Assembly (NCBI GenBank): GCA_032358255.1
Contig: JAULBX010025420.1
Location: forward strand, 1-61,599
Length of the DNA stretch: 61,599 nucleotides
From: Heterotrichella gracilis
Lineage: Eukaryota; Sar; Xanthophyceae; Tribonematales; Xanthonemataceae
Direction: 5' to 3'
A program made the position numbers and the translations under genes. The notes under the pieces were generated by a model. It saw only the letters and a program-made list of their open reading frames with translations. It did no database searches and had not been told where the DNA came from. This document shows positions 3,913-49,972 of this stretch, piece after piece (the first letter of the stretch is position 1; every line of letters starts with the position of its first letter).

Positions 3913-4217
3913 CTGGACCACTTCCGGATCGGCACGAGGGAGGCCCCTGCACAGCCCAGGCAATATAGGAAGTTAGAAACAATAAAAATGAAAATGTACT
4001 ACAAAAGTCCCTTCCTGTGCCTCACAGACCCTGCTTCAACCACCCAAAACCAACTTCATATTCAAATCCACATTCAAAATCACCTCCGATTGCACCCCCT
4101 GTGCTTTCAGCCAGCAGCAAATCCCCACAAATCCTCATCCCCCCCTGTGCCTCATTTAGACCCTGGACCATTTTTTGGCCAACCTGCACGAGGGGGGCCC
4201 CCTGCATGGCTTGGCTC
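3913..4217 (+). repeat. Tandem copies upstream of the first recognised exon (tail-anchored gene)
   Basis: The block around 4384-4440 (gaccacttcttggccgacct and onward) is preceded by two degraded copies, at about 3913-3960 and 4150-4217. The 4150-4217 copy is embedded in a tandem unit of roughly 225 bases that also repeats the cctgtgcc...aaccaccc flank. The copies are out of frame or interrupted, so they are not exons. Confidence 0.75.
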
Positions 4218-4383
4218 AATCTCCTCCTGTGCCCCTTGGACCCTGCATCAACCACCCAAAAACAAATTCAAATTCAAATCCGAATTCAAAATCACCTCAG
4301 CTTTGCAAACCCTGTGCTCTTTCAGCCATGGACCATTTGCACCAGCCCCACAATCCTCATTTCTCACCCTGTGCCTCATCCAG

Positions 4384-7300
4384 ACCCTGGACCACTTCTT
4401 GGCCGACCTGCAAGAGGGGGGCCGCCTGCATGGCTTGGCCCAGTCCAGCGCGTACCGCATCAAGCTGAGTGATGGCGACCGCAAGGAGTTGATCGAGGCC
4501 TTCACACAGATATTTGATGCTGCGCAGCGGGTGAGTGCATACACACGTTTTGTAAGACTTAGCAAATAGTATTATGTTATTTGCAAAAGGTGATTGCATG
4601 GATCCGATTGAGGCATTCACGCAGGTATTCAATGCTGCGCAGCGGGTAAGTTGATTTCTTTGATGTACATGAGGTGCATTGAGTAGGTGGTGTGGACTAT
4701 AGCATGAGGAAGATAAACCCGTCAATTTTTGGGTATTTGTTTTTCTACATACTAGCAAAGCTGCAGCTGGGGGAGGAGGGGGCCAACACTTACCTGCTGC
4801 CTGTGTGTCCTGTATCACCCCTGCAGAAGGGTTTTCAGCACTGTACCATCCACCTTCAACAATCGTTGAGTGGCGTGAGATGGTTGGCAGAGCGAGTCAA
4901 CACCAGGGCAGAGCGCTGCCGCTGAGACTCATTTAATTAACAGGACTATTTCCCCCTCAATCCCCTACCCATTCACCCACCCAACCGCCCGCCACCATCA
5001 CAAAGCAGTCAATACTACTCATGATTAGAAAACTCATTATTCCACATATGCACGTAAGCGTTCTGTGTTTTGGTGCCAGGTGGTTGATCGTGTAAGTCAG
5101 CACCAGGAGGGCAGTGCGGTAATCACTCCCGAGGACTATCACTCCCTGGTGGATGCAATGCAATCAGCAGAGAGCAGGGCTGCGGTACGCATAGTATTTT
5201 AGGGTATAGGGTATCACTCTAGACCACCGACATTAAGCCCTAACCCCAAGCCGTAAACAGGGGAGTCCTGCAGTATGGGTACTCCATGCCTTGCGCCCTA
5301 AATCCTCAAACCCTTAGTGAACCCTTGGTGACACCCTAGGCAGGGGATTTCTGCAATACGGGTTCCTTGAACCCTGACCTTGACCCTAAACCCTGCATTT
5401 TGAGGTGCTGTAGTATGCCTTGAAGGCTCGGGGTTTAGGCAATGCTCCCGCTGCACCAATGTGGGAGCTCATCGTGCTTATGTTGTTTTATCTTGAATGG
5501 GTGGGTGGGCAACCTGTGTGCCATTCAAGTTCAGGCAGCACCAGCACTATGAGCTCTCTCATCGTGCTGAGGGCGCCTTGCCTACACTCTACACCAAAAT
5601 CCTAATTTAAAACCCTAAACCCCACTGAAGGTGCTGAAGGTGCTGTGCCTAGATTCATGGGCAGAGTACACCAGATTTGAGATGATGTAGCTTGAGTTGT
5701 TACGAACTGCCTGCCAAATGTGCATGTATGCAGGGCTGGGGTGTAAATAAAGCTCTGGGACATACATCCAAACTATATGTGTATCATCCGGGTTTGTACT
5801 TGTTGATTTAATAGGCACCCTCTTTGTCTGCAGCAATTCCTTGCTGACCTGGAGGCCTCGCTTGGCCCTAAGCACATGCCATTCCACCTGGAGCATTTCC
5901 ACCAGATTGTGACTAGCCCCTTAGCACCAGAGATCAGCATCACGCAGGACTCCTACAAGGAGCTGGAGTTGATGAAGGTGATTGCATTTTATGTTGATGG
6001 AGTAATATTGATGACTGATGTTGAATTGTGGTTAAATTGAGTTCTAGTACTTCTGTAGTAAGGAGCTTGAGCTTGTGTAAATGCAATGGATTTGTTCAAT
6101 TGTATATTCACATCATTTCTGACCAAAATGCTTGTAGCAATTACTACATGCAATATTACTTGTCTTAACTAAGGGATAACTATTTCCATTTATAATGTGC
6201 ATCGCGCGGGAAGCATACAAGGGGCTGATTTGCCGGTCTTAGTTCTGAGAGATCCCAGTCCTATTACTAATAGGGCTTGTCAGCATACTCTTGGGGTCTG
6301 CAAAAGCTTGAGCGTTTGAGAGGGTATGCAATGGCTTGCCTTACATTGTCATCCAGGCTGTAGGATTGCCTATCACATGGGATGCTTCACCTCTTCACCC
6401 TTGAAGTGCTTGTCCTGCAGCAAGCCCTGGATTGCAGCCTCCAGAAGGCGGCAGGGGGGTACGACAATATGGCCATACACGACGTCAAGGCGGTGCACGA
6501 GGGGTGGAGGCAAAAATGGGAGGTAGGGTGTAGGGCGTAGAGTTGAGGGTTTTGCATTTAGGGCCCATCAACAGTGTTAAGGCGGTGCGCGAAGGCTACC
6601 AGCTGGCAGAAACAGGAGATAGGGTTTAGGGAGTAGGGTTTAGGGTCTAGGGACGTTTGATGACGAGAAGGGTCGCACCAGGGCAGGAGGCAGGAATCGG
6701 AGGTATGGTTTGAGCGTTCTGCGGGCAGAGGAAGGGTTTGGGGCTGGAGACTGAAGGGGGAGGCAGGAGAATAGAAATAGGTTGCAAACCTGAGGTAGGG
6801 GTTGGTGTAGGGTGTAGGGTGTCTGCCACAGGTGCATGCCACCATTGTACGTTGCATGCTGTAGTACAGATGCCGCAGGCTGAGTAAAGATGCCAGACTA
6901 GGTGTCAAGTTGGGCTATAAGGGTCGTTGGCACCTTTTTCAGGGTTGTCAGTATCGCCGGACAATGCTAACACCTGCACAAGGTTTAGCATTGCTCGGCA
7001 GTACTGACAGCACTCAAATGGTGTCAAGTACCCCCCATACCCCAACTTGACACCCAGTCTGGCATTTGGGTGTCATCACATGACAATCATCCCATGGAAC
7101 GAAATTGAAACCTGCTGTGTAATGACGGATTTGATGATCTGTACAAATGGATTACCCCCCCCTGCACATTTGGCTTTGCAGCGGGAACCATGCACTCACA
7201 AGCATTGGCAAATGAATCTGTGCATGTTACTGTTGTAGAAAATGGTACTCCCTACTGTAATCGGCTAATTGCCTTAATACACAGGATTTGATTTCAGATT

Positions 7301-12611: not shown

Positions 12612-15600
12612 CTACAAGCGCCCCAGGGCTGTGGTACCCGGTGCACGCACCACCTGACACACCGCAGGCCGCCCTCGCACCAAGCGGGCCCTCGGTGAAA
12701 CGCATCGATGGACCGCCAGCTGGCGTCCCGTCACCGCCGCTTTGCTGCCACCCATCCACCTGGCATCGCCACGCTGCGCGTGCCCCTGGCTGATCAGGCT
12801 GGGCCTGGCAACTCCAGGAGCCACGGAGCTTTGGAACCCTAGGGCAGGGTTTTGGAGCCCCAAGGCCCGCAACACCCCTCGCTGGCGCCTGGTCACAAGC
12901 CCCTTGCTCAACAAGCTGGTGCCATGCCCCCACATGGCAGCTCCATGCTGCGGGTGCCTTTGACTGAACCTGCGCGAGCCAGCTGCAGCTGCTGCAGTAG
13001 CCATAGCGCTTTGGGACCCTGAGGTAGGGTTTTCCGACTCCGAGGTAGGGGTTGAGGGCGCCTCGAGGACGGTATCTGGCGAGCCGCAGTTGCGGATGGC
13101 GGAAAAGTAGGCTGCCCATCGCGCGTCCAGAAGCTCCGCGGCTTCATCCGGTGCCACCGCGCAATGCATGCCCTGCGCGTGTGAGGGTCAGTGACAACAC
13201 TGATGCAGGGGTCCATACACAGGCCAAGAGGGTTGTAAGCACAGAACGGCATCTACTTTTACGGTTTTCCATGCACTCACATCAGCAAATACTTAAAATG
13301 GATCATTGGAGGATGGTGACGATTGCTATGTGGCACTAATCGCAGCACTGCACACAACGGATGCGCAGCTACAGTGAAAGGCATTAACCTTTGGTATCCT
13401 AAGTATCATTGTGGTAGGTATACCCCCCTTGCTATACAGGCCAAGTGCACCATGGCACAGTGTTTGCCCCACCTGGCCTTGAGGCACAGAGAGGCCCTGC
13501 TTCATGAGCAGGCTCAGCGCTCGCCCCCCCGCCAGCTTGCGGTTGAGGCCATAGCGCTCAGCCAGCCACTGCTCAGCAGCTGCATCCACCGCTGCTGAGC
13601 TCATGGGGTTACCTGCAAAACCATGGCATAGTAACGCACTCCCCTTGCTGTATCAAACGCCAACACTTGCAAAGCTGTACGCAGCAGTTGCAAAAGGTGC
13701 ATGCACAGGCGCTTTGTCAGGTTGGGCCCTGCATCGCACTCCCCATGCGGAGTAGGGCAGCGTGTGACGATTGCAAGCAGTGCATGTAGGTTACAGGGCC
13801 AGAATGCAGGGTAGGTGCATGCATGGGTAGCACGATGGGCACATATCAGGCACACATTGGCCAAAGTGAGGGCTAACCATACACATTACCCTGCCGTGTA
13901 ACCCCTTAAATCCACCCACCAGCCCCCGCCTCGCGCAGCATGCTTCCGCACGCTACACATACCCTACACCCCAAACCCTAACTCCCTGAGCCCTCAAAAC
14001 CCACCTTCCTGCCCCGGCCTCGCGCAGCATGGTCCCGCATGCCACACAAACCCTACACCCCAAACCCTAAATCCCTAAGCCCTCAAAACCCACCCACCTG
14101 CCCCGGCCTCGCGCAGCATGGTCCCTATACGCCACACAAAACCCTGGACCCTAAACCCTAGAATACCAAAACCTTACGCACCTGCCCCAGCCTCCCGCAG
14201 CATGGTCCCGTACGCCAGCACGCTCCTCCGCACACTCTGCTGCGCCATGCCCCGAAGCACCACCAGCAGCACCCCCCCACCCACATCCACAGCCCTCTCC
14301 AGCGTGATGCGGTTCAGCTCCGAGGCCACCTTGGTGCGGCGCTGCCTGAGCGTGCTGTAGATCTGGGCGGCCCTGCCCGCTACCACTGACAGCAGCGGGC
14401 CAAGCACCTTGGCCGCCATAGCGCCCTGCGGGAATAGGGTATGAGGGTTTAAAAGATGTTCACAATTGTGGAGTGGATGGTCCAGGGGGACCTTTAACAC
14501 CAGTTTGTGGTTCAGGGTCCAGGGGCTTTGGGGCGCTGTGATGCGATGGGGCGCGATTCAATGGGAAGGGATGGGAGGGTTACGCACAGGTTGCACTGGC
14601 AATGCCCTTGCAGTACATCCAGCGCCATGCCATGTCGCCGCACACTACCCATCACCCCCACCACCCGCCTCCCTGATGGGCACCCCCAGCCCCCACAACA
14701 GCCCCACCCCCCCCCACCCGCCCCACCCACCTCCCTGATTGCTGCCGCCAGCCCCACCAGTCCACCCGCCAGTATGAGCAGCAAGCGGACGGTGGTGCGC
14801 GGGTCCACCACGATGTCCCTGTCTGGGAACACAATCTCCAGGTCTGCCATGGGGATGTCGCGGAAGCGGCGCAGGTGGATGTTGTGGCGGGCAGCGGCCT
14901 GCGGGGGTGAATTAGTAATGAAATGGAAAGACAATCCAATGAGACCCTGCATGTTCCAGGTATCCTAAGCTGGTATGCATCTGCCATCTGCCCGAGAACT
15001 GTGCGCTGTACACAACTGGCCTCCCCACAGTGTGCTGTGGTAGAGATAGAAAAACTGGATGGCATGCTGCGGCGTGGCAATGCATGCATGATGATTCCTT
15101 ACCGAGTCCTCCGAGGGCAGCAGCATGGCCTCCGATTTCTTGACCTTCCCGCCTAGCTTCTTCCTGTACACCACGATGACCTCGCGGAAGGAGGGCTCAA
15201 GCAGCTCAACCTCCTGAAGGGACAGATGAATACAGGGATTGACATAATAGGTGCAGGTATGGAGAATCCGTACACCGGGTGTAACCTACATAGGGTAGCG
15301 ATCATAGGACCTAATGATTTAAGTTAGCAACGAGACACAAATAAATTTATCAGAAAAATTCATGAAATCAACCTTGCCATCATCAACCGCACTTACCTCA
15401 AACAGGCCCTTGAGGAGGGACCTGGTGTCTGGGAAGATCATGCGCAGGGTGCGCCGCTCAGCCACAATCTCAAGGTTGCTGTTGCCAGGGCCCGGCGGCC
15501 CCTCCGAGATCACCCCATTGCTCCTCCCAACCTCCCCCTGCCCCCCTCCCGAAACCACCCCATTGCTCCCCCCCGAGCCCTGGCTCCCTTCAGAAACCGC

Positions 15601-18482
15601 GGCAGTTCCATTGGTGCTCTCCTCGTCCTCTTCGAATATGCTCCCCTTGAAGAGGTCAGGGCCAAACACAGGCAGGTCCTCGCCGCTAGAGGACAGGTCG
15701 TCGGCTGACCCATCCTCCTCCTGGGGGGGCTTCTCTATCCCAATTGCGCCTGAGACAGCCTTCCGTACATTTGCGGCCTGCAGATGTATAGATCAAGGCG
15801 TAAACAGACACATTCAAAGCTTAGAAATGCAAATCTGCACCTTTTAGGGCCTGATAAATAGGAGAGGTTTCATACCTCAGATCAGGTATGAATACATAAC
15901 ACAAGGACCGCTGAGGTATGCGCACTAATGGCCTCCGCACGAAGGGCAGGGTTTGACGAGAAAGAACTTCAGCAGGGTGCGCGCACTATCCTCCGCACTG
16001 CTCCCATACAACAAAAGGCAAGGATCAGGGTTTATTCAAGGTTTGGGCAGGGTGTGCGCACCATCCTGCCCAGTTTCCGCACTCCGGCCTCCCTGGGATG
16101 CTGCAGCAGGTACTCCAGCAGCAGGTCAAGGGATTTCGATAAGAGTTTAGATTATTGACTTTAGAGCCATTGAAATTACAGTTCAACTAATCTGCCTGCA
16201 TTGCTGGGATGCCATGTGATTGACTGACTGATTAGGGTTTCTAGCAGGGGTGCGCGCACCATCCTGCGCAGTTTCCGCATGCCCGCCTCCACTGGGTGCT
16301 CCAGCAGGTACTCTAGCAGCAGGTCAAACTTCTCGTTCAGGTACCTGCCCTGCATCCTGGCCTGCAGTGGGGGTAGGTGGGAATGCTTTTCTGGTTTGTT
16401 TTGTAGAATAGGTGGGTACGCGCAGGTGCATGGGCTGACATGACCTTGCAACAGCCATACTAGTAGCCAGCCTTGTGCAGCACCAAGCAGTGACTTTATA
16501 ACGCCATGTACACTTTTTGATGGTCTGTATTGAGTGGCCAGCCCTCCCCGCATCCTCGTCCATTGCACGTGCAAGATGATGCTCTCCCTATAGCAGCTTC
16601 ATCTTGCTGTGTGTTATGTGTGGTTGGTCCGCCTGTGCACGATGATGACCTCCCCACCCACCCACCTGGTTAATCCCCCTGTGCATGATGATGACCTCCC
16701 CACCCACCTGATTAACCCCCCTACGCACCATGGTGACCTCCCCACCCACCCACCCACCTGGTTAATCCCCCTGTGCATGATGAGTATGCTGTCTGCCAGC
16801 TGTGGCAGCGCAGCCCTCAAGGTGGGGTTCTGCTCCCACAGGCGCGGCAGCAGGTCGGCGTCGATCTGGGACCAGTCAACCTCAACCGGGAGGGTCATCT
16901 GCAGGGGGGGCGAAGGGGGTGAATATACAAGGAAATACTTGCTGGGGATGGCCATCATGAGGCTTGCCTATGGACAGGAAACAGCTATGGCAAAGGATGG
17001 AGTTCTCAATTTTGGCCCACAGGCTCAAAAGTTGTATATGTGTATCATATCCCCCCACCAGGAACTCGTTCTGGCCGCAGTCAGCACCGGTGCTCAGCAC
17101 TCTGTAACAGGGCCACCACGTTCCCTCCCCATCCCACCCCACCCACCCCACCCCACCCCACCAGGCCCCACCGGCAGCCACCAATCCCACAAGAAGGATT
17201 TCCCCATCATTGCCAGTCACTTTATTTCACCCCTGGGGCCCCGCACGCACCAGGAACTCGTTCCGCTTGGCCGCCTCCCACTGCTGCACAGTCAGCAACT
17301 GGTACTCAGCGCTCTGCAGCAGGGCAGCAAGGTCCTGCAGGAACTGCACCTCCTGCTCTGCCAGCTGGCTGTCATCCACATCAACACCTGGTGCAGCGTT
17401 AGGAGGTGTTAGGTACGAGGTTTAGGGTTTTAGCGCTGAAAGGCAACACTTGGCCACGTGGGAGGCTTAGGGTTTAGGGTTTATCCTGGCACACAGCGTG
17501 GCTGTCATTGGCAGTGAGACCTGACGTGGTGTGGAGGCGCTGCGAGGTTAGGGTTTAGGGTTTTAGATTAGGGTTTAGAGTACATCCTGCTGAGCCGGCT
17601 CGCCTGCTGGGACCAATATATGGACATCATGGGATGTGTGGTGAGGTGAATAGTTGGTATGGTTGATGTTGTTGCGGTGGACCTGAGGCTGGGTGGTGAC
17701 ATGGGTTGGTGGCATGGCGGTGTGGTGAGGCTGGTGGTGGGTGTAGTAGTGTGTAGGTATGATGATAGTATGAGTATGGGTATGCAAGCCAGTGGATGTG
17801 TGGGGGTGTGGGGGTGGAGGGAGGGGTGTGTGGGGAGGGGTTGTGGGGAGGCAGGTGGGTGTGGCCATCTGGGATGTGGGGGGTAGGGTGCACCAGCATA
17901 GAACGAGAACCACCTGCTGTCTCGGTGCCATCGATGGCAACGAAGGGCTGGGAAAGGTTCTCAAACTTCCTGCAATAACACCCACATCCAGTGAGCACGT
18001 ATTAGCAAAGGGGGGCAGACCGTCCTTGTCATACCCTGATGCCCCAAGCTCTCCTACACAGTGCAAAACACCACCACCCAAGGAGGTACCTATTTCCCTA
18101 CCTCCTGATCTCGAAAAACTCCAGCTGCGTGACACCTTCGATGAGCTTACAAACAGACAAGAAGTTGGCAGCATCAGCTCCCAAGCCGTCTGCATGCATG
18201 CAAAAGCACGCAGGTCAAGGTTGCTGTGCAACGCAGAAGGGGATTCGACCCCAACCCACTTGGCAAAAGCAGCCAAAGGGTGCGCAAAGAAGTGGTACCT
18301 GCCAAGTCTGAGATCAGCACGTCTGTGGGGATGTTCAGGAACCTGTCTGGTGGGCATCGCACTGTGGCAGTAGCCCGGTCCTTTTTTTCCTCCATGCGCT
18401 CTGTCGAGAAGGTGTTCTGCAGGCCCTCAACCCCTAACCTGCCCCAGTCCCTGGTGTCCGCGAAATGGGCGTACATCAACAT
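12612..18482 (-). CDS. DUF3754 (TMEM143-like) membrane protein, 770 aa
   Basis: Twelve exons fit with matching phases: 18482-18299, 18189-18102, 17969-17914, 17387-17251, 16898-16758, 16361-16260, 15777-15397, 15213-15103, 14898-14731, 14425-14182, 13612-13473 and 13172-12612. The C-terminal third carries hallmarks of the DUF3754 family of plants, algae, cyanobacteria and animal TMEM143. These are EVIVVYR, then RRFRDIPMADLEIVFP, a hydrophobic segment (LLLILAGGLVGLAAAI), a second one, and the closing VDAAAEQWLAERYG and DEAAELLDARWAAYF motifs. A low-complexity acidic/Ser/Gly insert (exon 15777-15397) and a 150-residue Ala/Gly/Arg-rich tail are extra to the family core. Members are envelope or mitochondrial membrane proteins of unknown activity. 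ATG 18482 is the first in-frame start. Confidence 0.82.
13917..14181 (-). repeat. Three echoes of a DUF3754 exon end
   Basis: The last 35 bases of exon 14425-14182 (cagcatggtcccgtacgcc...) plus the donor site recur at about 14098-14132, 14011-14045 and 13920-13955. The unit is about 85 bases. Each spacer carries CCCTAAACCCTAA-type sequence. All lie in the following intron. Confidence 0.9.
16055..16150 (-). repeat. Echo of DUF3754 exon 16361-16260
   Basis: The copy spans the exon's C-terminal half and donor. It reads DLLLEYLLQHPREAGVRKLGRM, against DLLLEYLLEHPVEAGMRKLRRM in the real exon. A shorter third copy sits near 15965-16000. The copies stay open in frame but have no matching acceptor, so they are probably unused. 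Confidence 0.85.
16622..16757 (-). repeat. Three echoes of DUF3754 exon end 16758
   Basis: The block gttaatccccctgtgcatga followed by tgacctccccaccca repeats at a spacing of about 40-50 bases directly after the exon. Each copy preserves the CAG/GTGGGTGG-type donor, so the transcript offers several equivalent 5' splice sites in a row. Confidence 0.85.
17059..17110 (-). repeat. Echo of DUF3754 exon 17387-17251
   Basis: The donor end of the exon (caccaggaactcgttc on the plus strand) and the cagtcagcac...ctcagc...ctctg block recur here in compressed form, about 190 bases downstream in the intron. Confidence 0.75.
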
Positions 18483-19918: not shown

Positions 19919-20650
19919 AGGCGCCATTGGAAGGGGCCCAGCAGCACCCAGTGAGGGCCTGCTAACCCCGGTTGGAGACCAGCGAAGTGAAGTGGAGATA
20001 TAACCACACCACGTGAATGCTCCACGAGTAACAGAACCCCACTAGCAATAGCGATAAGCAAACCTGGCGTGTGCAGCTTTTTGTTCGAAACGAGCACCTG
20101 CGCGGAACCCCTGACAAATGCTTCAGCAACAGCGAGGTCAGAACGAATGGAGGACCACCGCAACAGCTCGTTGGCGTCTGAATGCAATCAGAAGGCAAAG
20201 CCCGGCCAGGTTTGAACCCACGGAGTTGGCATTGCTGCTTGCTATGTATCAGGGATGAGCAGCTCCGACGAAACGAGTGTGTTTTCTCCTCGTGACATTT
20301 TCTGGTGGCCTTCCCTTGCATACCCTCAAGTAGGGTTCAACCTAAACGACCAGGTTTTGCAGCCGGGTTCATTTAATGAATCATTGTTGCACAGTGCACA
20401 AACGCCGTGGTTGTCGTTAGCCCACAGCGCAAGGGCAGCAGTGATTAATAACGGTACTGTATTGAGGCAACTATTCCGCAAGCAAACGTTTTGAAACCGG
20501 GTTAATTTAATTAATAAAAGGGGGTATGCATGCATGCATGCATATGAATCTGCTTGTACGCGAGAGAGTGGCTCGTGTATGCTTGGTGGGTTAATAGCGT
20601 GCTGAAGCCAACAGGGCTTTTGCTGCTGTCTGAGAGCAGTTGCCTAAAGC
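19919..20650. other. Divergent intergenic region
   Basis: This lies between the minus-strand basic protein gene and the plus-strand duplicated ORFs. It contains an AT-rich stretch near 20490-20545 with a gcatgcatgcatgcat tract and ttaatttaattaa, possibly promoter-proximal for the plus-strand unit. No exon was seen. Confidence 0.5.
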
Positions 20651-20860
20651 ATGGCCCAGCCGAGTGCTGACGAGATTGCGCAGGTGAGGGAGACAGTAAG
20701 GCAGGTTGTGACTGCAGAGCAACTGTTTCTGTTGTTTAACGAGGAGCACTTCAAGGTCTTGTGGAAGAGCAAGTACCGCACCGTCCGATCTCTGCAACGG
20801 GCATCAAGAGAATGCCTACTTCACACGCAGCTGCCTGAGGCGCTGGTTGACTGTTGTTGA
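20651..20860 (+). CDS. Small duplicated ORF, copy 1 (69 aa)
   Basis: The frame begins MAQPSADEIAQVRETVRQVV and continues as a charged, helical peptide, with FLLFNEEHFKVLWKSKYRTV in the centre. It closes with LPEALVDCC and a TGA. It is the shorter of two tandem paralogues and the substitutions between them are mostly conservative (see copy 2). The family is unrecognised. It could be a 5' exon of a longer gene, with the later exon near 21635-21891 read in another combination. The stop argues that this copy at least terminates here. Confidence 0.45.
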   Translation: MAQPSADEIAQVRETVRQVVTAEQLFLLFNEEHFKVLWKSKYRTVRSLQRASRECLLHTQLPEALVDCC

Positions 20861-21065
20861 TGCCCCACCCTGGTGTGTACTTACGTGCCTAGGAGAGTCT
20901 AGCCAGGACTAAGACTCTTAGTAAGAGAACCGTCCCGAGAACCATGTGTGCTGCGGTGTGCCAAACTTGCCCTTGTGAAGTTATCCACCCACCTATCTAT
21001 CCAGCTGGTGTGTGCTCCACTCTGCACAATTTGTTTTGCTGCTGGCTGAGAGCATTGCCTAAAGC

Positions 21066-21308
21066 ATGGCCCAGCCGAGTGCTGAACAGATTGCACAGGT
21101 GAAGGAGGCAGTAAGGCAGCATGTGGCTGAAGAACTACTGTTTCTGTTGTTTGACGAGGAGCACTTCAAGCTCCTGTGGAAGCACAAGTACCGCATCATC
21201 GAAGCTCTGCAAGTGGCATCAAAAGACTCTCTATTTCGTATGAAGCTGCCTGAGGCGCTAATTGACTGTTTGAGGCCCCTCCACAGTGGTGTGTACTCAC
21301 GTGCCTAG
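21066..21308 (+). CDS. Small duplicated ORF, copy 2 (80 aa)
   Basis: This paralogue of the ORF at 20651 begins MAQPSAEQIAQVKEAVRQHV with core FLLFDEEHFKLLWKHKYRII and end LPEALIDCLRP. Differences from copy 1 are largely Asn/Asp, Val/Leu, Val/Ile and Arg/Lys exchanges, the pattern expected of protein under selection rather than of junk. It runs 11 residues longer because the TGA of copy 1 is absent. Function is unknown. It may splice to downstream exons, but no junction with matching phase was proved. Confidence 0.5.
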   Translation: MAQPSAEQIAQVKEAVRQHVAEELLFLLFDEEHFKLLWKHKYRIIEALQVASKDSLFRMKLPEALIDCLRPLHSGVYSRA

Positions 21309-33700: not shown

Positions 33701-36700
33701 ATCCTTCATACAACACCCTCATGCTACACGCTCCATGATTTACATAAAGCTGCTCCTGCCAAATCCCGGCCCAAATGACTTTCCCAGGGGCCAGCTTTCC
33801 CTCTGAACAAGCACGCAAATGGAGTGGCAGTGCCACCCTAAACCCTAAACCCTAAACTCTCACCTGTCCTTTGGGTGCCAGTGCCCGTCGGTTGCCGCTG
33901 ACACGTGCCCCTTGGTATTCTTCATATCCCGGATGTACATGTCGCCGCGTATGGTTTCGCCTAGCACCTTGCCGTCCCGATCATACACCTTGAGCTGGCT
34001 GCTGCCACTCACAGCCAAAAAGGCATCGCCTGCAGGAAAGGTGACGGGGATGGGAATGAGGGTCTGGGTACCGGCGCAGGGTATATTTTGTCATAGTGTG
34101 GACATTGCAATCATCTGGTTTAGCTTTCAGAATGGCGTATGGTTTCGCCTAGCGCCTTGCCGTCCCGTTCGTACACCTTGAGGTGGCTGCTGCCGCTCAC
34201 CGCCAAAAAGGCGTCGCCTGCAGGCAAGGATGGTGGACCAATGAAAGTAATAGTGAAATTAGTGTTACACATCATTCCAAGACCTCCCCCTTTTTCCTCC
34301 CAACTTCTTGAATCATAGGCACAGCACTGCACGCCTAGCCGCAGATATACACCCCTCGCGCTCCAGCTAAAAGCATGCTAGAGTTTACGGCACTTAGTTT
34401 AGGGTTTGGCATTAGGGTATCCTTCCAGCTGTGGTTCCAGCCCACAGCATACGCAAATTCACGGTCAAAATGAGGGTACAATACCACTGTAACTCCAGCT
34501 GACGGCATGCTAGGTTTGTGGTTAATGTTTAGGGTTTGGGCATGGTCACAAAGCACCCTTACCACTGGGGCTCCCAGCATGCTAGGGATTAGCGACATTA
34601 CGGCACCCTTACCGCAGGGGCTCCAGCTGCCGGCATGCAGCAGGTGGCCCTCTGCCATCTGACGGCATGCTAGGTATTATACATTAGGTGTTAGGTTTTG
34701 CCTTTAGGGCACCCTTACCGCTAGGGCTCCAGCTGACGGCATGGAGCGGGTCTGCAGGCTCCACCTCCCTAGGGTTGTCTTTACACACTTAGGTCTGCAT
34801 TTAGGGTTTGTCAGGGTCACAAATTACCCTTACCGCTGGGGCTCCAGCTGACAGCATTCTTGGGTTTAGACTTTAGGGTTAGGGTTTGAGCAAATGTCAA
34901 ACCCTAATATTAGGGTATCCTTACCGCTAGGGCTCCAGCTGACTGCATGCAGCGGGTGGCCCTCTGCAGGCTCCACCTCCCGGAAGCTCCTCAGATCCGA
35001 TTTCATCCCATTGAAGTCCCACATCTTGATCATGTAGTCCTCCCCCCCGGTGAGCAGGCGGGCACCGGAGTGCTCCAGATCCAGGCAGGTGACCTGGCGG
35101 GTGTGGCCTGCGTACCGATGGGGGTTGGGGTTTTGAGCTGGGGGGAAGAAGTGGGGAGAAGAGCGCATCGGTGGGGGGTGGGTGTTGGGCGGGATGGGTA
35201 AGAGCACATTAATGATGGCGTGCATGGTGTGGTGCAAAGCCGCAACCAGCAGGTGTAGGGCTTGCTGGTGTAGGGCATGGAAATACCCTGAAATGCACAA
35301 AAACGCAGTGTACCAACCCTTATCAATGCCACGGACTAAGCTGAAACTCACTGTGATGCATTGGGTTCCAATGCATATAACACCATGCTGCCCAATGCCA
35401 GGGAGTTAGGAATTTAGGGATTAAGGCCTTAAGGCTTGGCGCCGGGTCTGTGCCCTTACCTTTGAGCGAGATTTCGTGCGTGACCGGCAAATGGTAGATG
35501 TCCTCCTCCTCATCCTGCTCCCCGGGACCCACTCCACTGCCATCCTCATCCCCAGAATTACCCTCCTCGGGCCTGGGAGGACCCACAAAATCATCATCCG
35601 CAGCGTCCTCCCCTGCATCCCCACTCGGGGGTGCAGGCCCCACGAATTCCTCCTCATTTTCCACCCCCTGAGGAGGCCTGGAGGGACCCACGAGGGGGTC
35701 GCTGCTGGTGGATGCAATTTGGGTCCCTGGCCGCTGGGGCCCCACAAATGTGGCTGGTTGCGCGGTCGGGATTTTGGGGGGCCGCCGTGGGGGCCCCACT
35801 TCTGGCTGGGGTTTGCGCTGGGTTTTTGCCAGGGCCTCCTCAATTTTCACCCCTGCCTTCTCCTGCTCGCCTGGGGATTGGGAAGGGTGAACATAATTGA
35901 ACGCAGTGATAATATATGTAAAATAAAAAATAAAGGCCAGTGTAAGAAAAGGTACAAATTGGGAATTGGCCCCGAGTGTCAGATACGAGAATGGAAATGG
36001 GGATGCTGTAGGGCATGCTGCCATGGGTCAAGAATCACATCTGATACATCATCAATGAAGATTCATTGTCGACCACTGGTGGTGGGTCAACATGGCATAG
36101 TGGCTCGGGAAGAGCTCACCACCCTAAGGTTGTATCACGTTCATAGGGTCTGCAACAGGGTCGAAGGGTTTCCCACCACGCACCAAACGCCATTGGAAAA
36201 TGCGCCCGCAGCCCCTCATCGTACTGCGCCACATCCTCCACCACCACCGCCCCATCCTCCTCCCCTTCATCATCGCCACCATTCTCGCTCTCCCCGCTGC
36301 TGCTGCCCCCATCCCTGCCGTCATCCAGTGGACCCACATCCTCCTCCTCCTCCAGGGAGAGGGGGGCGGCTGTGGGGGCGGGGGCGCCGTAGTCGATCTT
36401 GGGGGGTAGCCGCCTGTGTAAGGGGCGGGGGATGCAATGCCCATCTTGATAATGCTATTTACGTTCAATTTCATCTATGGCTTGCGTGTGGGTTGTCTGT
36501 GTGCCTGGCGACTTTGACCGTGGGTGGCTGGGTGGTGTGGAAGCCGGCGCAGGTAGCACGGTGTGGCGTGCTAGTAGTGCATATTTTGGCCAACACAACT
36601 AAGCTTGAGGGCATGAGGTGGTAGCGGTAGTGGTGATAGCTGCAATGCTGGTGTTGAGCGATGCATGTGCAGCTTCGCTGCAATTATTTTGGTTATTCCA

Positions 36701-38868: not shown

Positions 38869-41800
38869 TCACAGCTCTGGGTCCTCTTCCTCCCCTGGGT
38901 CCCCGTACAGCCAGATGCCTGTGTGCGCCTTGTGTGCCTTCTCCTGGGCTGCCTCAAGCTTGGCAAGCATATCCTTCACCTCGGCCTGCGGGCGTGGGGG
39001 AGGGGTGAGAGGGGAATGAATGCAGGGGGGTGAGAGGAGAATGCAGGGGAGTGCATGAGGGTGCTGACGCAGTTGCCTGCAAAAACGCAGGAGGTATCCC
39101 AGCTACACAAGCCTAGCGGAATGCATGGATGTCACATATTGACCCGCCATGGGGTGTGAAGACGTTATAGGCACAAGGGTATGAGAAGCCCTGTTTAGGG
39201 TTTAGGGTGTGGAAAGACCAGGTGAATGGATGCCAAGTGGCTCGAGCACGTGCTGTCGAACAAAAATGCAGTGCACTCCCAACAAATGCACCTCCCACAA
39301 CACGCGCCACCCTCCACCTCCCACCTCCTCCCCCCCATCCCCCACTCACCCTCGGGTGCCGCGGCGCCACCACGCGCGCCACCCCCGCAGCCACCATCTC
39401 CTCGTTCACGCTCGCGCCACCCCCCTCGGCCGGCGCCAGCGTCAGGTGCAGCCTGCCGTGGGCCTGCGAGGGGTCCTTGGGCTTGCCCACCACCTTCTCC
39501 TTCTGCTCCACCACCGCTGTCAGGCGCTTGCCTCCACCGGTGAGCTCGGCAAGGTAAGAGGCGGCCTCTGAGCCGTAGTCCTGGTCAAGGGTGGGGGCCT
39601 GCGGGTGGTGGGTGGTGTGAGTGTGGGTGGCGGGGGTTCAGTCCCCATACATATTTGTGTTTTGAAAGGAAAAATGGGAGAGCAAGCGACGAGCCACACC
39701 GCGGCTTGCGCAGCCGCTGGTTTAGGTGCTAGGGTTTAGGGTTTAGGGCAGGGACAAGGTGACCCCCTTGCCTCCCCACCCACCCTTGCACCCTCCACCT
39801 CGCCAGGATAGACAATTACAATCACACAGAAATGAACATTCCACATATATAATGAACATCCCTTCCCTCCTCTCCTCAGGCCCCCTGCATTCCCCACCTT
39901 GACAAACGCCAGTGTGGCCAGGTGCGCCTGCGGGGGCACAGCAGCCAGCGCAGGCTCCATGGCCCGCACATGCTTTGCGGGCACCTTTTCCCGGTTGCCA
40001 AAGTCCAAAAAGTAGATGGAGTAGACTGGGCTGAGGGGGTTGGTGCGGTCCACGCGCTCCACCGATGCGCGGTACCACTGGTTGTCAAGGGAGAAGAGCG
40101 CCACGCACTGGGCGCCGGGGGCGAGCGCGCCCTGCAATGGGGGGTGAGGGGTGGGGGGGTTCAGGCGGGAAGGTAAGAAGTCGGGTGGTGGTGGGGCGCG
40201 CAGCAGGCAGCTTGCGGTATCGAAAGGTCATGACTATCCCAATGAAAAGTCAATATTTTTACCTCGGCGATTTGCATGGATGCAGTTTTGAGCACCATGC
40301 CCAGAGTTTAGGGTTTTGAGCAGCATGCCTGCCACAGCAAATGTTGTTCAACTTTCTTTCAAGAAGCGCGCCCATCACAGCCATTGCACCGCGCTAAAAA
40401 CACCAACAAACCCCCCTATATTCACGTGCCCCCCTCCCCTCCCATCCCCTCCCCACCACCCACCCCGCTGCCGCCCCCATCCTCCACACTCAGCCCCCGC
40501 AGCTGCTCCTCGATCCACCCCACGCGGGGCTCGTCAGCAAACTGCACAAAGAAGGAGCCCCCGTCTTGCACCTCGGTCACCACCACAGCGCGCGCCTCGC
40601 GGCTAGTGGGGGCCTCGGCTGCGCCGTTGGTCTCTGCGGGGGTCTCGGCCTCGGGGCTGTAGCTCTCCCACACCTGCGGAGGGGTGGGAAGGCGGGGTAC
40701 AGTGGCAGTGGCGTGCAGTTGACTAATCTTGGTGGTTTTGGTGTGCAGGTTTAGGAGTTGAGCCCTGATTATATTGTGAACTTTGTAATTGTGATTTGAG
40801 AAATTACCATCATAATTTAAAATATAGGTTTTGGTGTGCAGGTTTAGGAGTTGAGTCCTGATTATATTGTGCACTTTGTAATTGTAATTTGAGACGTTAC
40901 CATTCAGGCATGTTTCCGCAGCTCGCCAGTTCCCTCTATGACCACTGCCCCCACCTACCCACCTTGAGCCTCGCCTCCCGTGCCCGCTCCTCAGCAGATA
41001 TCAGCTCCCGGGCCCCCGGCCTGCCCGAATCAAAGCTCGAGTGCAGCTTGGCAAGGCCCGCCTCAAGCAGTGCGGGGCCCAGATCCAGTGGTTGCTTGCC
41101 CAGCACCCGCAGGGATCCCAGGAAGGTCCCCACCCTGTCCACGGCTTCTACCTCCACCTCCACGTCGCGCTGCATGCAGGCCTCGCGCGTGAAGCGCAGG
41201 GCCTCCGCCCAGTAGGGCTCCTCCTGCGGGTGGGGAGTTGATCTGTACCATTTGGGATTTGATACTTGGAGGTTTCATCGTGTGGGGTTTTTGCAAGTGA
41301 AGCGCGGGGCTTCTGCACAGCAGGTGGGGCCTGATTCGTAAAGCACTTGATCATAGTTGATCATACCAGAAATTTATATCAGATACAACCATCGGTCAGA
41401 GCGGTCACGGATTGTGCAAGTGCAACAAAAGTCCAAATGCCTACAGTTTCCTATTCCCTGTCTCGCACCTTGACCGCTGGCCTGCCTGCTGAGGCTGGCA
41501 TGCCCTTCTGCGGCGTCCGCACCCCCGAGGGGGAAAACGCAAACGCCAGGCTCTGGCTGGGTACAAAGATCTTGAGCCTGTGCCCGTTGAGCACGTACTC
41601 GCACACCCCCTGCAGCTTGCCGGCACGCTGGAGGGAGGACAGGAACTGCTTGGCCCTGTGGTGGGGGGTGGGGGGAGGGGGCGAGTGGGGGCCGAGGGAT
41701 GGGGGGTTGGAGGGGCCACTGACAGGACTGTGAACGCCCTTCTTGCTGGTCTTGCCCTGATCCTCAGCAGCCATCAGGGCTCAGGGTTTCAGGGTTTCAG

Positions 41801-44800
41801 GGCATCGCGCTTAGGTTTTCAGGGCTCAAATTCCTCAGAAGGTCCACTCACTTTGCGCCGCTCTCCCTCGAGAGGTCGTTGGTGCGGGGCTTGGGCGGTT
41901 CCCTGCTGCTGTGCGCCCCCTTCTTGCTTGCCTTGCCCTGGTCCTCAGCAGCCATCAGGGACTCGTAGTGCGCAGAGCGCTCATCGTCCGATCGGTGCTT
42001 GATCACGCTGGCCAGGCCACGGATCAGGAGCAGCTCGGCGGCGTTGGCATCGGGCTGCGGTGGGGGTGAAAGGTTGATGCAGGGTTGAGATAGGCGGTAG
42101 TGGGGGGTGGAGGGGTGTGTACACTACAAAGAGCATTCTGGAATGGCCCATGCTGTGGTGTAGTTGGCCAGGCAGCAACTGCTGCAATTATATGTATGGT
42201 GTGGTTTGATCGGTGCTTGATCACACTGGCCAGGCCACGGATCAGCAGCAGCTCGGCGGCGGTGGCGTCAGGCTGCGAAGGGCGGGAGCAGGGTGAGGGT
42301 TGTATGGTGGAATTCCATGCCTTGGTCGATGTGGACACCCAAGGCCACATGGGTTGGCCTCGTCACTAAGGACTCCAAAGGCAAAGGAGATATAAAGTGG
42401 TACAAGCAATGCCAGGACATTAATGGGTGGCGTAAGCTTGCTAAGCTGACTGCTGATCTGCCTTTTGTGCCGGAATGCCAATAGTAACATTCATCATAAT
42501 GATCCAAACTAAGTACCTTGCCCGCCTCCTTGATTGTGACTGTGCCGAACGCCATGACGCGGTCCGAAGGGGCGTCCGGGGCACCGGGGGCGGGCTGGAT
42601 CTTGCGCGTGTACTCCATGCTGACCTGGGGGAGGACAAAAGGAAGTAGTAATATCAGTGCACATGTGGCTCAATGTGACAAGGCAAAGCAGGCAATAATA
42701 GGCATTCTGGAGATATCAGTGCCTTTGTGCACCCAGCGCTCCCCCATGTCTCACATCGTACTCATCAGAATTGTGGCCTGCGTAAATGCAGCTTAATCCC
42801 ACCTACTCACCTACACCCACACCGCGCAACTATCCCCCACCCGCACCACCCATCACCCACACGCACCTGCACCTCCCGCCCAATGAGCCTCTGCCGCAGG
42901 AACTCCTTTGCCTCTGGCGCCCATGCCTCGCAGGTGTCTGAGGTGCGGCCCATGCGCGGGGCGCGGATGCTGGACAGGTTGATGCGCCGCTCAACCTCTG
43001 CAGGGTTTAAGGTTTAAGGTTGGTGTGGTGTGGTGTGTTGGGCAAGGGTGGGGTGTGGGTGCGCATGCCAGAGAGATGCAGCGACGCTCAACGTCTGCAG
43101 GGCGGCGAGTGTGTGCGTACGCCGCAAAGTGTGGGTACATGTGGGCGCCTGGATGTGGATGTGAATGTGTGAGCATGTTGAGTGGCACGTAGCCCTCCCT
43201 CCGTTGTCAATGCACTAAGACCTAGCCAAAATAAGAAATTAGTCCCAACCCCGTCATTAGGAGAAAATATTCGAAAATGTTACTACTAACCCCACCTGAT
43301 GCAAAGTCCTTGACCACCACGCAGTCCCCGCTGACCACCTCAGTGACCACCCCAGTGAAGTTGTCGCTCAGCTTGGCGGAGTTGGAGTTGAGGGGCACGT
43401 AGCTCTTCCACATGGCGACCTTGCCCTGCTTGGCAGCGCGCTCGGCCTCGCGCAGGCGGAAGGAGCCAGTGGTCATCATGTTCAGGCCCCACTCCACAGT
43501 CTGCGGATGCGCAGGAATTGGGTTTAGGGTTACAGGGTTTTAGCGGATGATGGATTATGGTTTACCCCACTCCACCGTCGGGTTTAGGGTCCAGGGTCTA
43601 GGATGTGCTTGGCCTCACGCAGGCGGAAGGAGCCGGTGGTCATCATGTTCAGGCCCCACTCAACGGTCTGCGACTGCAGGTACAATTTAGGGTCACAGGG
43701 TGTGGGGTTCAGCGACGTCCAGGGCTTCAGGTTCAGTGTTTAAGGTTTAGGGTTCAGCATGTAGAATCTCAGATTTAAGGGTTTAGGGTTTATGGTGTGC
43801 CCAGCCTTGCGCAGGCTGAAGGAGCCAGTGGTCATCATGTTCAAGCCCTACTCAACAGTCTGCGGGGGGTTCAAATGCGCAGTCTGCTTAGGGTTTGCTC
43901 GGCAGGGCCCCCGTGGCATCTCCACAGTCTACGACCGGCGAGGTTCATGTATGCATGCGTGCAACTGACCAATTGTCACCCAACCCACCTGGCCACCGCC
44001 CACAACCGTTCACCCATCACCCACTTTGACAAGTCAGGCATTTTTCTTTTATCACAAACATTACTTACCTTTGCGAGCCCTGCGTTGACCAGTGTCAGTC
44101 CCAGGTCTGCCTCCTGGTCCCCATTCTCGAAGTACACGGTCCCAAACAGGTTGTTGTACTTGTCAAGCCCCTCAAGCACCACGCGCACTTCCCGGTTCAG
44201 GGTCTTGGACTCGCTGAAGAAACGGGCTTCGCGGGAAAAGGGCTCTGCGGGCGTCTCTGGGGAGGCAGCAAACATATATTCATAATTAAAAAGGTAGCAT
44301 ATATTTAAAGATGTTATTTTGAAGGATTGGGGTTTGTGATGCTGTACACAAGGAATGTTTTTGTGCAAGGACTGCGCTGCAAGAAGGTTGTAAACGCACG
44401 ACCGAGGGGACCAACAGCATAGGCCACTGCGCTGACCCTGAACCCTAAACCCTAAACCCTCGTACCTGAGGATGCCGCCAGCGCGGATGCGGCCGTGCTG
44501 ACCCCCTCTGCGTTCACGTTGGGCTGCGCCCGGCGGCCCATGGATGGCGCCTGGATGCCGCACAGCATCACCGTGGCTGGCTGCAGGTCGGGCAGTGTGG
44601 TCACCCGCAGCGTGCTCCCGTTGGCCACCTGCTCCACTATAGCCTTGATGGGCTTGCCCTTGCCGACGGTGGCGAACAGCATGGCCTCCGCTGCGCCTGT
44701 GGTACGCAGGACAGGGATGGCATGAGGTACAGGATATTAAGCACACAGCATATATCCTTATAGCATGTAGCTTAAGATCTACTTAGTTGTAGCTATGTTG

Positions 44801-46438: not shown

Positions 46439-49400
46439 ATGGCAGAAGGGGGCAAGGGTGGGTTGAGCCTGAACCTGCAGTTCCAGCCCAAAAAGCCAGC
46501 CCGGAAAGTGGAGGTTGAGGAAAAGAAGCCTGGCGTTACAAAGGACTATGTCGTTGGCTTCACCGATGGTGGGTTGCAGAGCAAGGACCCCGTCAAGGCG
46601 GTGCAAGCTGGGCACAAGGTGATAGCAAAGCTTGAGAACACGTACCAAACAGGAGCCAGGAAGCACAATCCCAACAGGTGCGAACGTGCATTGCGAGGAA
46701 AGCAAGCTTCTTTACACACTGCCATATGCATGCATATGCCCTCATGCATGCCTGTGCCCAGGGATCTGCAGCAGTGCACTGGGTACTTGCATGCGTACAC
46801 AGGTCCATTATTTGTGGACATGCATGCAACCGATTGCAGTCTGCGCCTGGTCTGCGTGACAATTTATGATCTCGCTTGCATATGCATGCATACGCGTCCC
46901 ATGCGTGCACTGCATATTAGTTTGGTAGATTTTTGGGAGTGCAAAGCAGTGCATCCAGATGAGCGGTATACATGCCTTCACCATCCAATCTTTTATAGGC
47001 ACTGCATATACCCATCTGTGTATCGGCAGGTTCAGTGCAGTTCAGCTGCACACAGCAGGGTCAATGCCATATTGCGTTTGCAGCAAAACTATTTGCACCC
47101 ATGTCCCAAAAAAAATCACTGCATTACAAACAGCAGCACGTCAACTAGTAGCGCTCAGATGCCTCATTCCCGGGCCCTCCAGTCACTAAGTACCGTTCAT
47201 GGCAGGTTCCTCCCACCGAGCTCAGATGATGTGTTGGACCCCACCCAGCTATCAGACGACAAGTTCGAGGCCGCTGCTGTGCTTGTTGCCAACACAGCAG
47301 ACACCCAGGTCCAATACGGGCTGAACCTGCGCGCAAGACAGGTGCGCTGCTGTAGGGCGAAGGGATGAGGGCTTTCAACCTTGCCCAGGCTACCACACGC
47401 CCGCACGTACACCTTGCATTGGGAGCTGCATTCGACAACACCTCATGCATCCACCAGCTTGCATGCACCGTTGCAAAGCCCATCTAAGCCGTCAGAAAAC
47501 ATGCACAGCTTTGCCCCCACCCATAGTGGGTTTAGGGTTTAGGGTTGCCATCTGCCATTTGGGTTCCACTATTTGTAATTTTTGCTAGAAAATACCATCT
47601 GGTGCATCCTCAAGCTGATCCGCTTGCCACTCAGGACAATGGTAATGGCAGCCAAGCGCAGCCCCGGGAGGTGGGCTCCTGGGCTGACCGGGACCTCCAG
47701 AAATTCAAGGAGGACCTCCAGAAGCTGCCCCCACAGGCTGACCTGGAGGCGTATGAGGCCATGCCCATTGAGAACTTTGGGGAGGCGCTGCTGCGGGGCA
47801 TGGGGTGGACGGCGGGCCAGGCAATAGGTATGGCGGTGTAGGTTTTTAGGGTTTCTAGGGGAAGCGTTGGTGCGGGGCATGGGGTGGACGGCGGGCCAGG
47901 CCATAGGTCATGTGGACACCATGCGCACTTGCCATGTACTTTGAATGCAAGCAGCAGCACTATCACCACCTACAATCATTGCCGATCACCTTTCAGGGTT
48001 TTAGGGTTTAAGGGGCTGCCACTCGCACCGCATTGATCACATGCAATACCCTTATGTGCACATGCACATCGCCACATTATCACCACCTCCACCCCCCACA
48101 CCCACCCAGGCCTGGTGCCGTGCCCTCTTAGGTTTTTTGTTAGAGAACCAGCGGAACCGCTGTCCACATGCTATGCATGTGCAGAGTTGCAAATGCGCAT
48201 GGCAGCGCCATCACCCCCCACTTGAACTCCCACCCCACACCCCAGGTCGTGCCAAGGAGGAGGTGAAGGCCACTGAGTTGGTGCGCAGGGAGGCGCGGCT
48301 GGGGCTGGGGGCTAGGCCTGCGCCGCTGGAGCCAACGCACAAGAAATACATCAAACCAGGTGAGCGCCCGGCCTATTTTCTTTGGCCTAATCTTTAGGGT
48401 TTTACATTGAAGTTTTATGGTATTGAATGTAAGGGTGACACTGCTGGAGCCCATTTACAGGAAGTATGGTGCATCAAGCCAGGTGGGTGGGCTGTCGACC
48501 TGCTTAAGGGTTTGGGGTTAGGGTTACTCTACCTGCTTAATGTAAGGTTTTAAGGTGCACGGTACATTTAGCCAGGCGGGCGGCATGTCTAGGGTTAAGT
48601 TAGTCTAGACTTAGGTTCGAGACTAAAAACGAAAGTGTGGTTAGGGCTGAGCCCTTCTAATTCCCCAGGTGAGAGCCGGGAGGTCCCCGCTGAGCTGGTG
48701 TACCTTGATCAGCACGGCAACCAGAAGCACACCAAGGGTCTGGACGAGGTGCTGGTGGCGCGGCCGCAGCCTGGTGTGCAGGCTGGCAAGACCATGCGGG
48801 TGGTGGGAGGGCGCCACGAGGGTTTCCTGTGCGAGGTGGTGGGGCTGGAGCCAAGGGAGGAGGGGCGGTCAGGTGAGAGGGGATGGGAGGAGAGGGATGT
48901 GTATGTAGTGTGGCTCCTGCCGCTGCCCCTGGAAGATTGTGTGCTTTAAAACCCTAAAAGCCTGTGCAAACCCCCAAACCAAGTGCGTGCACAACCCTGC
49001 CTCTGCTTGCGAATATTTTTTGCAGCATCCATGCTTATTGACACTGGAACGAATGTACATAATAAAGATCTTCATGAATCCCTGGCCCTGCAGACCGCGT
49101 CCGCGTGCGCCTGCTGCCCAGCCACGAGACCGTGACCGTGCGGGTCAAGGAGGTGGGGGAGCGTGACGAAAAGCCCGAGGGGAGGGAACCCAAGGGGGGC
49201 AGCGGCAAGGGGAAGAAGCACCAGGAGCGAGGGGAGGAAAAGGAGGGGCGGGGCACCAAGAAATCCAAGCCCGACCCTGCTGTGGCGGATGCCTACCGGG
49301 AAAAGCCCTGGCTGGTCCCTAACATCAGGGTCAAGGTGGTTGATAAGAAGCTCCAGGGGGGGAAGCTGTATTTGAAGAAGGGGGTGATCTTGGATGTGCA

Positions 49401-49972
49401 GCGGCCGCTGGTGTGCGACGTGCTGGTGGACGACACGCAGCAGGTGGGTGGGGGCAGGGCTGAGGGGTTAGGGGTTAGGGTTTCATGGAAATGGGCTGCG
49501 GCCGCTGGTGTGGGACGTGCTAGTGGATGATACGCAGCAGGTGGGTGGGGACAGGGCTTGCCTTGCTTCCTTCCCCTGCTTTGTTTGTGCCTGTCCTGTG
49601 TTGCGCTCTGCCGGGTGTGGCTGTTCTGCCTGTGAAGTTCCCTGCCGCTCTACCCGCTCTATGCTTTGTGAAATATCTTTTGAAATGTTTTTCGGTGTCT
49701 TCTGTTTGGACCTAGTTTGCTGATTTTGCATATCCCTCCCACAGGTTGTGCAGGGTGTGGCGCAGGCGCAGCTTGAGACGGTGGTGCCTAAGCGGGAGGG
49801 GGGCAGCGTGCTGGTGCTGGTGGGGGCACTCAAGGGGAGCAAGGGGAAGCTGCTGAAGCGAAACACAGAAACGGGGCTGGCGGCGGTGCAGATGGCAGCG
49901 GACTTCTCCATCCACAAGCTGTCGCTGGATGACATAGCGGAGTACACTGGGGCGGATCACGACGATGATTGA
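46439..49972 (+). CDS. GPKOW: G-patch and KOW domain protein (MOS2/GPKOW), 487 aa
   Basis: Seven exons join in phase: 46439-46677, 47206-47341, 47635-47827, 48246-48359, 48669-48872, 49094-49443 and 49745-49972. The start (MAEGGKGGLSLNLQF) is followed by DYVVGFTDGG. A G-patch follows (MPIENFGEALLRGMGW, then AGQAIG), then two KOW motifs (VVGGRHEGFLCEVVG and VLVGALKGSKGKLLKRN) separated by a Lys/Glu/Gly-rich linker. The end IHKLSLDDIAEYTGADHDDD matches the family. In humans GPKOW joins the activated spliceosome. In Arabidopsis MOS2 supports immune-gene splicing and pri-miRNA processing. Length agrees with homologues (460-480). Gene order head-to-head with Tudor-SN suggests shared control. Confidence 0.94.
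47862..47907 (+). repeat. Echo of MOS2 G-patch exon end
   Basis: The last 43 bases of exon 47635-47827 and its donor are repeated 80 bases later with three changes. The spacer is a TTTAGGGTTTCTAGGG-like run. Confidence 0.92.
48438..48484 (+). repeat. Echo of MOS2 exon end 48359
   Basis: The block ctggagccaacgcacaagaa followed by atacatcaaaccag is copied in degraded form (ctggagcccatttacaggaa, then gtatggtgcatcaagccag) with a GTGGGTG donor. A TTTAGGG spacer lies between. A further trace, 'tttagccagg', is near 48568. Confidence 0.8.
49495..49540 (+). repeat. Echo of MOS2 exon end 49443
   Basis: The last 45 bases of exon 49094-49443 plus the gtgggtgggg donor are repeated almost exactly (RPLVCDVLVDDTQQ versus RPLVWDVLVDDTQQ). 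The spacer contains GGGGTTAGGGGTTAGGG. Confidence 0.93.

Follow-up and report, generated by a model that had tools for sequence, protein, structure and literature searches.

Copies of exon edges in the introns of Heterotrichella gracilis and the telomere-like sequence beside them

Introduction

How does part of an exon come to be copied into the intron that lies next to it? The question is raised by a contig of the xanthophyte Heterotrichella gracilis, JAULBX010025420.1 of assembly GCA_032358255.1, whose whole stretch of 61,599 nucleotides (forward strand) is called the window here. An earlier note on this DNA had described degraded copies of exon borders, which we call echoes, in the introns of several unrelated genes. 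We find that echoes are a true feature of the genome, extending well beyond the window. Most of them are separated from their source exon by sequence that was not duplicated with them, and this filler contains about 4-5 times as much telomere-type repeat as other introns do. We tentatively propose that echoes are short duplications spanning exon edges, made by repair, often with telomere-type filler, and kept where splicing hides the copy.

Results and Discussion

The assembly holds 68.5 Mb in 903 contigs, of which the window is contig C292. The sample consisted of the window and 25 ten-kb pieces picked by position and blind to content, giving 26 sequences of 311.6 kb in total. A self-trained exon-intron hidden Markov model (HMM), built on the sampled sequence, predicted 78 genes with 349 introns, a mean exon of 176 bases, a median intron of 285 bases and acceptors of the form TTGCAG/G. 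All four of the predicted proteins submitted to Pfam, out of the 78 genes, were recognised (SNase/Tudor, GPKOW, an amino-acid transporter in piece L011 and a serine carboxypeptidase), and single reading frames were recognised as WD40, SNase and PC-esterase. Two pieces, L004 (contig C1) and L020 (contig C100), held none of the 125 repeat pairs described below and were excluded from the placement control, detection simulation, telomere-cover controls, k-mer ranking and block test. Their GC contents are 0.33 and 0.37, against 0.50-0.59 in 18 other pieces; direct repeats less than 500 bases apart were not found in them, and they are perhaps organelle or foreign contigs.

Self-comparison of the window gave 39 direct repeats less than 2 kb apart, 37 of them at 66-416 bases, and at 100-500 bases there were 30 direct repeats versus 1 inverted. 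Across all 26 sequences the counts at 60-600 bases were 124 direct and 5 inverted, with a spacing of mainly 60-240 bases. For the placement analysis we counted direct repeats of at least 38 bits lying 25-600 bases apart (n=125), and every pair was shifted randomly inside its own sequence in 500 runs; pairs belonging to one array are not mutually independent in these statistics. An exon-intron border was paired with plain intron in 55 of the 125 pairs, where random shifting gave 19.4 (sd 3.9, maximum 33). Without the window the count was 39 of 84 pairs against 14.0 expected (sd 3.4). The reported echoes are real, and they are commoner at borders than elsewhere, the point on which the earlier note had staked its case. 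Intron-intron pairs showed no excess (17 against 21.4 expected) and intergenic pairs were in deficit (13 against 32.2). Exon-exon pairs (2 against 5.1) and exon-intron pairs (9 against 14.0) fell below expectation, as selection predicts.

Seven pairs in which the HMM had taken an echo for an exon were reclassified by hand, and two of 62 pairs were dropped because their border could not be mapped (L028 8260 and window 16717). This left 60 pairs at 48 of the 698 splice borders. Echoes cluster strongly by gene: piece L010 carries them at 7 of 30 borders and the window at 15 of 158, while 11 of 24 sequences have none. One of these 11 sequences, L013, is echo-free by the model, which overlooked an exon there whose acceptor border has copies. 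The gene at 1758-9055 of L010 appears RCC1-like by eye.

Part of the border signature likely needs no special process, since splicing can conceal a duplication that spans a splice site, and one lying within an exon disrupts the protein. In simulation, detection also favoured exon-derived or border copies 1.3-1.4 fold. On a rough estimate with about 70 placements per border, borders received about 1.0 event per kb of placement, compared with 0.1-0.2 in introns and intergenic DNA. After filtering and detection, splice borders therefore keep an event excess of roughly 3-6 fold, a figure that depends on the gene models. The suggestion that the border signature reflects a special process is supported in part.

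The copied exon part is 12-110 bases long, and its median over the 55 strict pairs is 47. Relative to the source, 28 of 29 acceptor echoes are upstream and all 26 donor echoes are downstream, an abutting-intron geometry found in 54 of the 55 border pairs. The exon-part identity ranges from 71% upward. In the 60 pairs, mismatch at codon positions 1, 2 and 3 is.083,.079 and.182 (959, 961 and 954 sites), and the changes comprise 136 synonymous, 143 non-synonymous and 4 stop changes, indicating that the source is conserved and the echo decays neutrally. Alternative or whole-exon duplication was rejected because 55 of the 125 pairs hold one border and the codon pattern shows a neutral copy. The acceptor spacings show no excess of multiples of three, as judged by eye. 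The copies are thus recurrent, border-containing, near their source and distinct from whole-exon duplications, as first described. Copies beyond stop codons, also reported before, are present as a last-exon-end echo directly past a stop codon at 49976-50040 (forward strand; source 49794-49856, 82%) and as an array at 30361-30640 of copies of the last-exon end of a WD40 gene (reverse strand; source about 30747-30867). A splice site is therefore not always involved, and the excess is at splice borders only.

If echoes were plain tandem copies, the intron half should match over the spacing minus the exon part. This was evaluated at 47 borders, one of the 48 being excluded because its filler was not measurable, and at 33 of them the intron similarity was under half of the full-tandem prediction. 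Among the 31 borders at.88 identity or above, the median was 38% of the tandem expectation, and 71% of these borders fell below half. A simulation of neutral decay, which assumes a single indel rate and ordinary introns, kept a median readable intron length of 97-100% at exon identities of about.95 to.87 and 90% at about.81; at like ages, coverage was below half in 0-3%. In 21 of the 60 pairs the intron sides were no more alike than the 95% level set by mismatched pairs. Where intron halves aligned over at least 25 nt (27 pairs), their mismatch was.21 versus.11 for the exon halves, the twofold difference that neutral decay asks for, so the intron does not appear to evolve too fast to be read.

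Plain tandem duplication by slippage or unequal exchange would act on 60-250 bases anywhere, with purifying selection, faster decay of the intron half and no filler process. It is an unlikely explanation of the echoes as a whole. It fits 14 of the 47 borders, where the similarity reaches at least half of the expected length, and we keep it as a rival. In its favour, selection and detection would account for part of the border excess, arrays are common, and intron growth is near the copy spacing in the two paralog comparisons below. As an account of all cases it was rejected by the neutral-decay simulation, since the observed extension is far below the simulated one, a result that depends on the assumed indel rate. 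The intron mismatch, just double that of the exon, also speaks against it, as does the unequal telomere cover of two flanks that a tandem copy would equalise (see below).

Two tandem gene pairs, in pieces L011 and L013, serve as natural comparators in which one copy has echoes and the other is echo-free. The echo intron of L011 has 608 bases compared with 354 in its paralog (+254; spacings 97 and 149), and that of L013 has 373 compared with 130 (+243; outermost spacing 218). The surplus in the echo intron thus roughly equals the copy spacing, with the filler counted in, though it may also stem from a deletion in the other copy. At the L011 donor, the start of the paralog intron scores 37 to the sequence past the echo versus 18 to the filler, the result that a new filler would give. 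At 4460-4480 of L013, the copy with echoes apparently has a GC donor (CAG/GCAAGT) where the other copy has GT.

Measured by six-base words of (TTTAGGG)n, telomere cover amounts to 4.9% in introns (3.9% in those free of echoes), 1.05% in exons and 2.1% in intergenic DNA. In the filler between source and echo it reaches 19.0% of 5628 bp, and such words are present in 39 of 51 fillers. The earlier account had seen the copies and missed this component. Telomere words also came out on top when 6- to 8-mers were ranked, unsupervised, by filler excess. In the fillers of intron-intron pairs the cover is 9.0% of 1119 bp. Among the matches listed, exact 35-base TTTAGGG arrays stand at the starts of contigs C70, C140, C526, C609, C717, C770 and C824 and near the ends of C46 and C173, others being contig-interior; the terminal positions indicate that TTTAGGG, a repeat of the plant type, is the telomere repeat of this genome.

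In a like-for-like comparison of flanks at the 48 borders, telomere cover is 23.6% beside the source and 6.9% past the outermost echo, the source flank being higher at 31 borders and lower at 3. The bootstrap range of the difference, clustered by sequence, is.118-.220. Borders without an echo have a cover of 6.6% (327 donors) and 4.9% (323 acceptors). A pre-existing border motif that was copied along was rejected by this comparison.

The telomere repeats may be inserted filler, a prior fragile site or sequence kept for splicing. We regard it as improbable that pre-existing intronic telomere-like tracts were fragile or fork-stalling sites which provoked template switching back into the nearby exon. 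Direct repeats flank 64 of 163 intronic telomere-like blocks versus 18 of 167 control intron positions, which speaks for such sites. In addition, the echo-free paralog of L011 already has a telomere-like stretch after its donor, which may thus predate the echo at that locus. However, flanking direct repeats were found at none of 34 intergenic telomere-like blocks (8 of 176 control positions), and the cover is at control level past the outermost echo, where a tract duplicated along with the exon edge ought to appear.

It is distinctly improbable that telomere-like sequence was selected because it helps splicing to choose the true site over the competing site of the echo. The excess of pairs at splice borders and its lack at ends of coding sequence (CDS) would fit such a role, as would a telomere association confined to introns. 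In acceptor fillers the repeat is nearly always C-rich on the sense strand (376 vs 18 bases), as a pyrimidine tract needs; this bias may only reflect the need of the new acceptor for such a tract. Donor fillers, however, show no strand preference (321 vs 269 bases; 10 vs 11 fillers), and echo-free borders have little telomere repeat. One further pair, L010 6121, was left out of these orientation counts.

RNA-templated copying, from cDNA of pre-mRNA or by reverse splicing, would end at splice sites and has a very remote probability. The similarity does end within 8 nt of the splice site at 11 of the 47 borders (including 4 of the 31 whose identity is.88 or higher), and single pairs of this type have 91-97% exon identity, but at the other 36 it continues into the intron for more than 8 nt, and CDS-end copies need no splice site. 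A junction of echo and previous exon was not noticed in the alignments inspected, for which no dedicated test was made. An assembly artefact is barely credible: two haplotypes or strains joined badly end to end could give exon-like copies with unrelated introns, but haplotype merging was rejected because exon identity runs from 71% upward with the mismatch of one-sided neutral decay and two echo-rich loci had no second copy among the scored assembly matches, and 20 sampled pieces checked contain no N.

We return to the proposal that echoes are made by repair. From the observed border excess and filler we infer the following steps. A break or stalled fork close to an exon-intron border would start the event. 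Break repair or template switching would then copy the exon edge (12-110 bases) and its splice site a second time, and filler, often telomere-repeat sequence, would be added between the two copies. Such a duplication would break the gene if it fell inside an exon. If it spanned a splice site, the original site would still work, and the second copy would turn into intron and decay. Some founder echoes may later amplify into arrays.

Several observations weigh against this proposal, besides the 14 borders that fit plain tandem duplication, the telomere-like stretch in the echo-free L011 paralog and the lack of flanking repeats at intergenic blocks. At the L011 acceptor, the paralog scores 22 to the source flank versus 14 to the echo flank. 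Exonic telomere-like blocks are flanked by a direct repeat in 1 of 16 cases. CDS-end pairs show no excess over random shifting (8 against 10.8), and a process blind to splicing should leave them; the fillers of these 8 pairs contain no telomere words in 1204 bp. Fillers of intergenic pairs, where a general repair filler should act, have a telomere cover of 1.5% of 1998 bp. At the 47 borders, telomere content shows a trend neither with age (Spearman -.09, p=.56) nor with the extension on the intron side (p=.92), and a rise with age that was suspected from bins of 9-14 borders was not significant on test. Residual intron length favours neither an insert-only nor a filler model (medians 302 and 219, compared with 267 in echo-free introns).

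The window contains 41 repeat pairs, of which 16 are strictly border-versus-intron, with three more after a mis-called echo 'exon' is set aside. The figure of more than 25 copies in five genes given earlier is about right when array members and CDS-end copies are counted. On the forward strand, an acceptor-border echo at 4013-4221 (source 4225-4445, 81%) is aligned over nearly all of its spacing of 212, and a donor-border echo lies at 4606-4651 (source 4491-4536, 85%). On the reverse strand, an array of donor-edge copies with CCCTAAA-like spacers occupies 13908-14217 (source edge 14176-14215). It is followed by donor-border echoes at 16050-16129 (source 16248-16327, 89%) and 16629-16691 (source 16717-16783, 87%), the latter excluded from the decay, filler and extension tests for its unmappable border.

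The densest group lies between 32 and 35 kb, also on the reverse strand. Its acceptor-border echoes are at 32050-32161 (source 31861-31972, 91%), where the intron sides past the splice site are not significantly similar, at 32652-32755 (source 32470-32572, 91% over 104), at 33309-33393 (source 33139-33229), with telomere-like filler in between, and at 34135-34229 (source 33947-34041, 92%). Donor-border echoes are at 32882-32915 (source 33011-33044) and 33631-33704 (source 33856-33929), where (TTTAGGG)3 stands a few bases past the true donor. An array of about five donor-edge echoes, several of them followed by telomere-like sequence, covers 34350-34857 (source 34909-34981).

The SND1 gene, on the same strand, has an acceptor-border echo at 42208-42277 (source 41990-42059, 93%) and two echoes of the acceptor at 43440-43506, the inner at 43607-43672 and the outer at 43804-43865. 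The filler stretch before the outer echo, 43686-43796, finds matches of 75-78% among the telomere-type repeat arrays that close contig C173 and open contig C712. In the GPKOW-like gene, on the forward strand, telomere-like filler runs from donor to echo at 47830-47857 and 49462-49490. The donor-border echoes behind it are at 47858-47908 (source 47779-47829, 92%) and 49491-49558 (source 49394-49461, 90%). Two copies had been called almost undiverged; this holds for 32652-32755, whose exon part is 98% identical, and is too strong for 49491-49558, whose exon part is 88% identical. Other repeats of the window are a 416-base tandem duplication at 20618-21436 (80% identity), its longest repeat pair, an AT-rich 93-base tandem repeat at 40734-40903 (94%) in a predicted SND1 intron and with no exon part, and an (ATAA)n microsatellite at the contig start (1-89).

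Echoes share features with several known systems. In the model of intron gain by tandem genomic duplication, the two repeats reportedly span one border each, donor and acceptor, of a single newly formed intron. Echoes resemble it as local exon duplications hidden by splicing, but none of the 125 pairs joins the donor and acceptor of one intron, and this route was rejected. Introner elements remodel introns recurrently in particular lineages. The remodelling here is likewise recurrent and lineage-specific; an element common to the echo-bearing introns was not found in the k-mer ranking, except telomere words. A genome search with one echo-rich locus of 3.8 kb returned the locus itself and six short matches, none of them long.

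The earlier view that no known route leaves such a signature went too far, since two published systems come close. In mammals, telomere repeat is inserted at double-strand breaks, sometimes with target duplication, which is read as staggered-break repair (PMC7215372; PMC2246262). Target duplication is given there for 3 of 66 horse loci and 2 complex ones (PMC7215372), for 6 of 130 loci in rodents and for 4 of 25 in primates (PMC2246262); 31% of human interstitial telomeric loci lie in introns, called compatible with random insertion (PMC7215372; PMC2246262). As in these insertions, the species' own telomere repeat, here TTTAGGG, is found at internal sites. Unlike them, the repeats here are degenerate and sit between the copies of an exon edge, with flanking duplication in introns rather than in intergenic DNA. 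Nor is their placement regardless of gene structure, as 163 of the 213 telomere-like blocks are intronic.

In Daphnia pulex, direct repeats in introns are described as scars of staggered breaks and introns as growing by repair; internal direct repeats are reported in 55 of 90 neo-introns, as are repeats of 4-12 bp common to the adjacent exon that mark newly gained introns (PMC4202315). Our 33 of 47 borders are similar in that direct repeats flank inserted, non-duplicated sequence. They differ in that the copied exon sequence is 12-110 bp long and the introns that grow were already there, and the word 'telomer' does not occur in the Daphnia text (PMC4202315). Direct repeats of 4-30 bp near splice sites, described in a further report from a comparison of the two borders of one intron, are read there as insertion scars (PMC11782384). 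In contrast to those, longer copies of a single border lie within the intron here. A combination of exon-edge echo and telomere filler was not found described in open-licence titles and abstract openings, which is weak evidence of novelty.

Conclusion

Gene predictors can call echoes small exons and so produce spurious repeated peptides. At least three cases occurred among our own window models, at 32124-32159, 33348-33383 and 42225-42272, where doubled peptides appear in the predicted WD40 and SND1 proteins. This annotation trap is likely general in the genome. The growth of introns and the origin of their sequence are seldom visible; here dozens of events of various ages can be read with source, copy and filler. 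The telomere motif in the filler names a candidate repair pathway. It is possible, though we consider it doubtful, that in this lineage breaks at borders are healed by short runs of telomere repeat together with re-copying of the exon edge, and that telomere-type repair would thereby be a standing source of introns, in both length and sequence.

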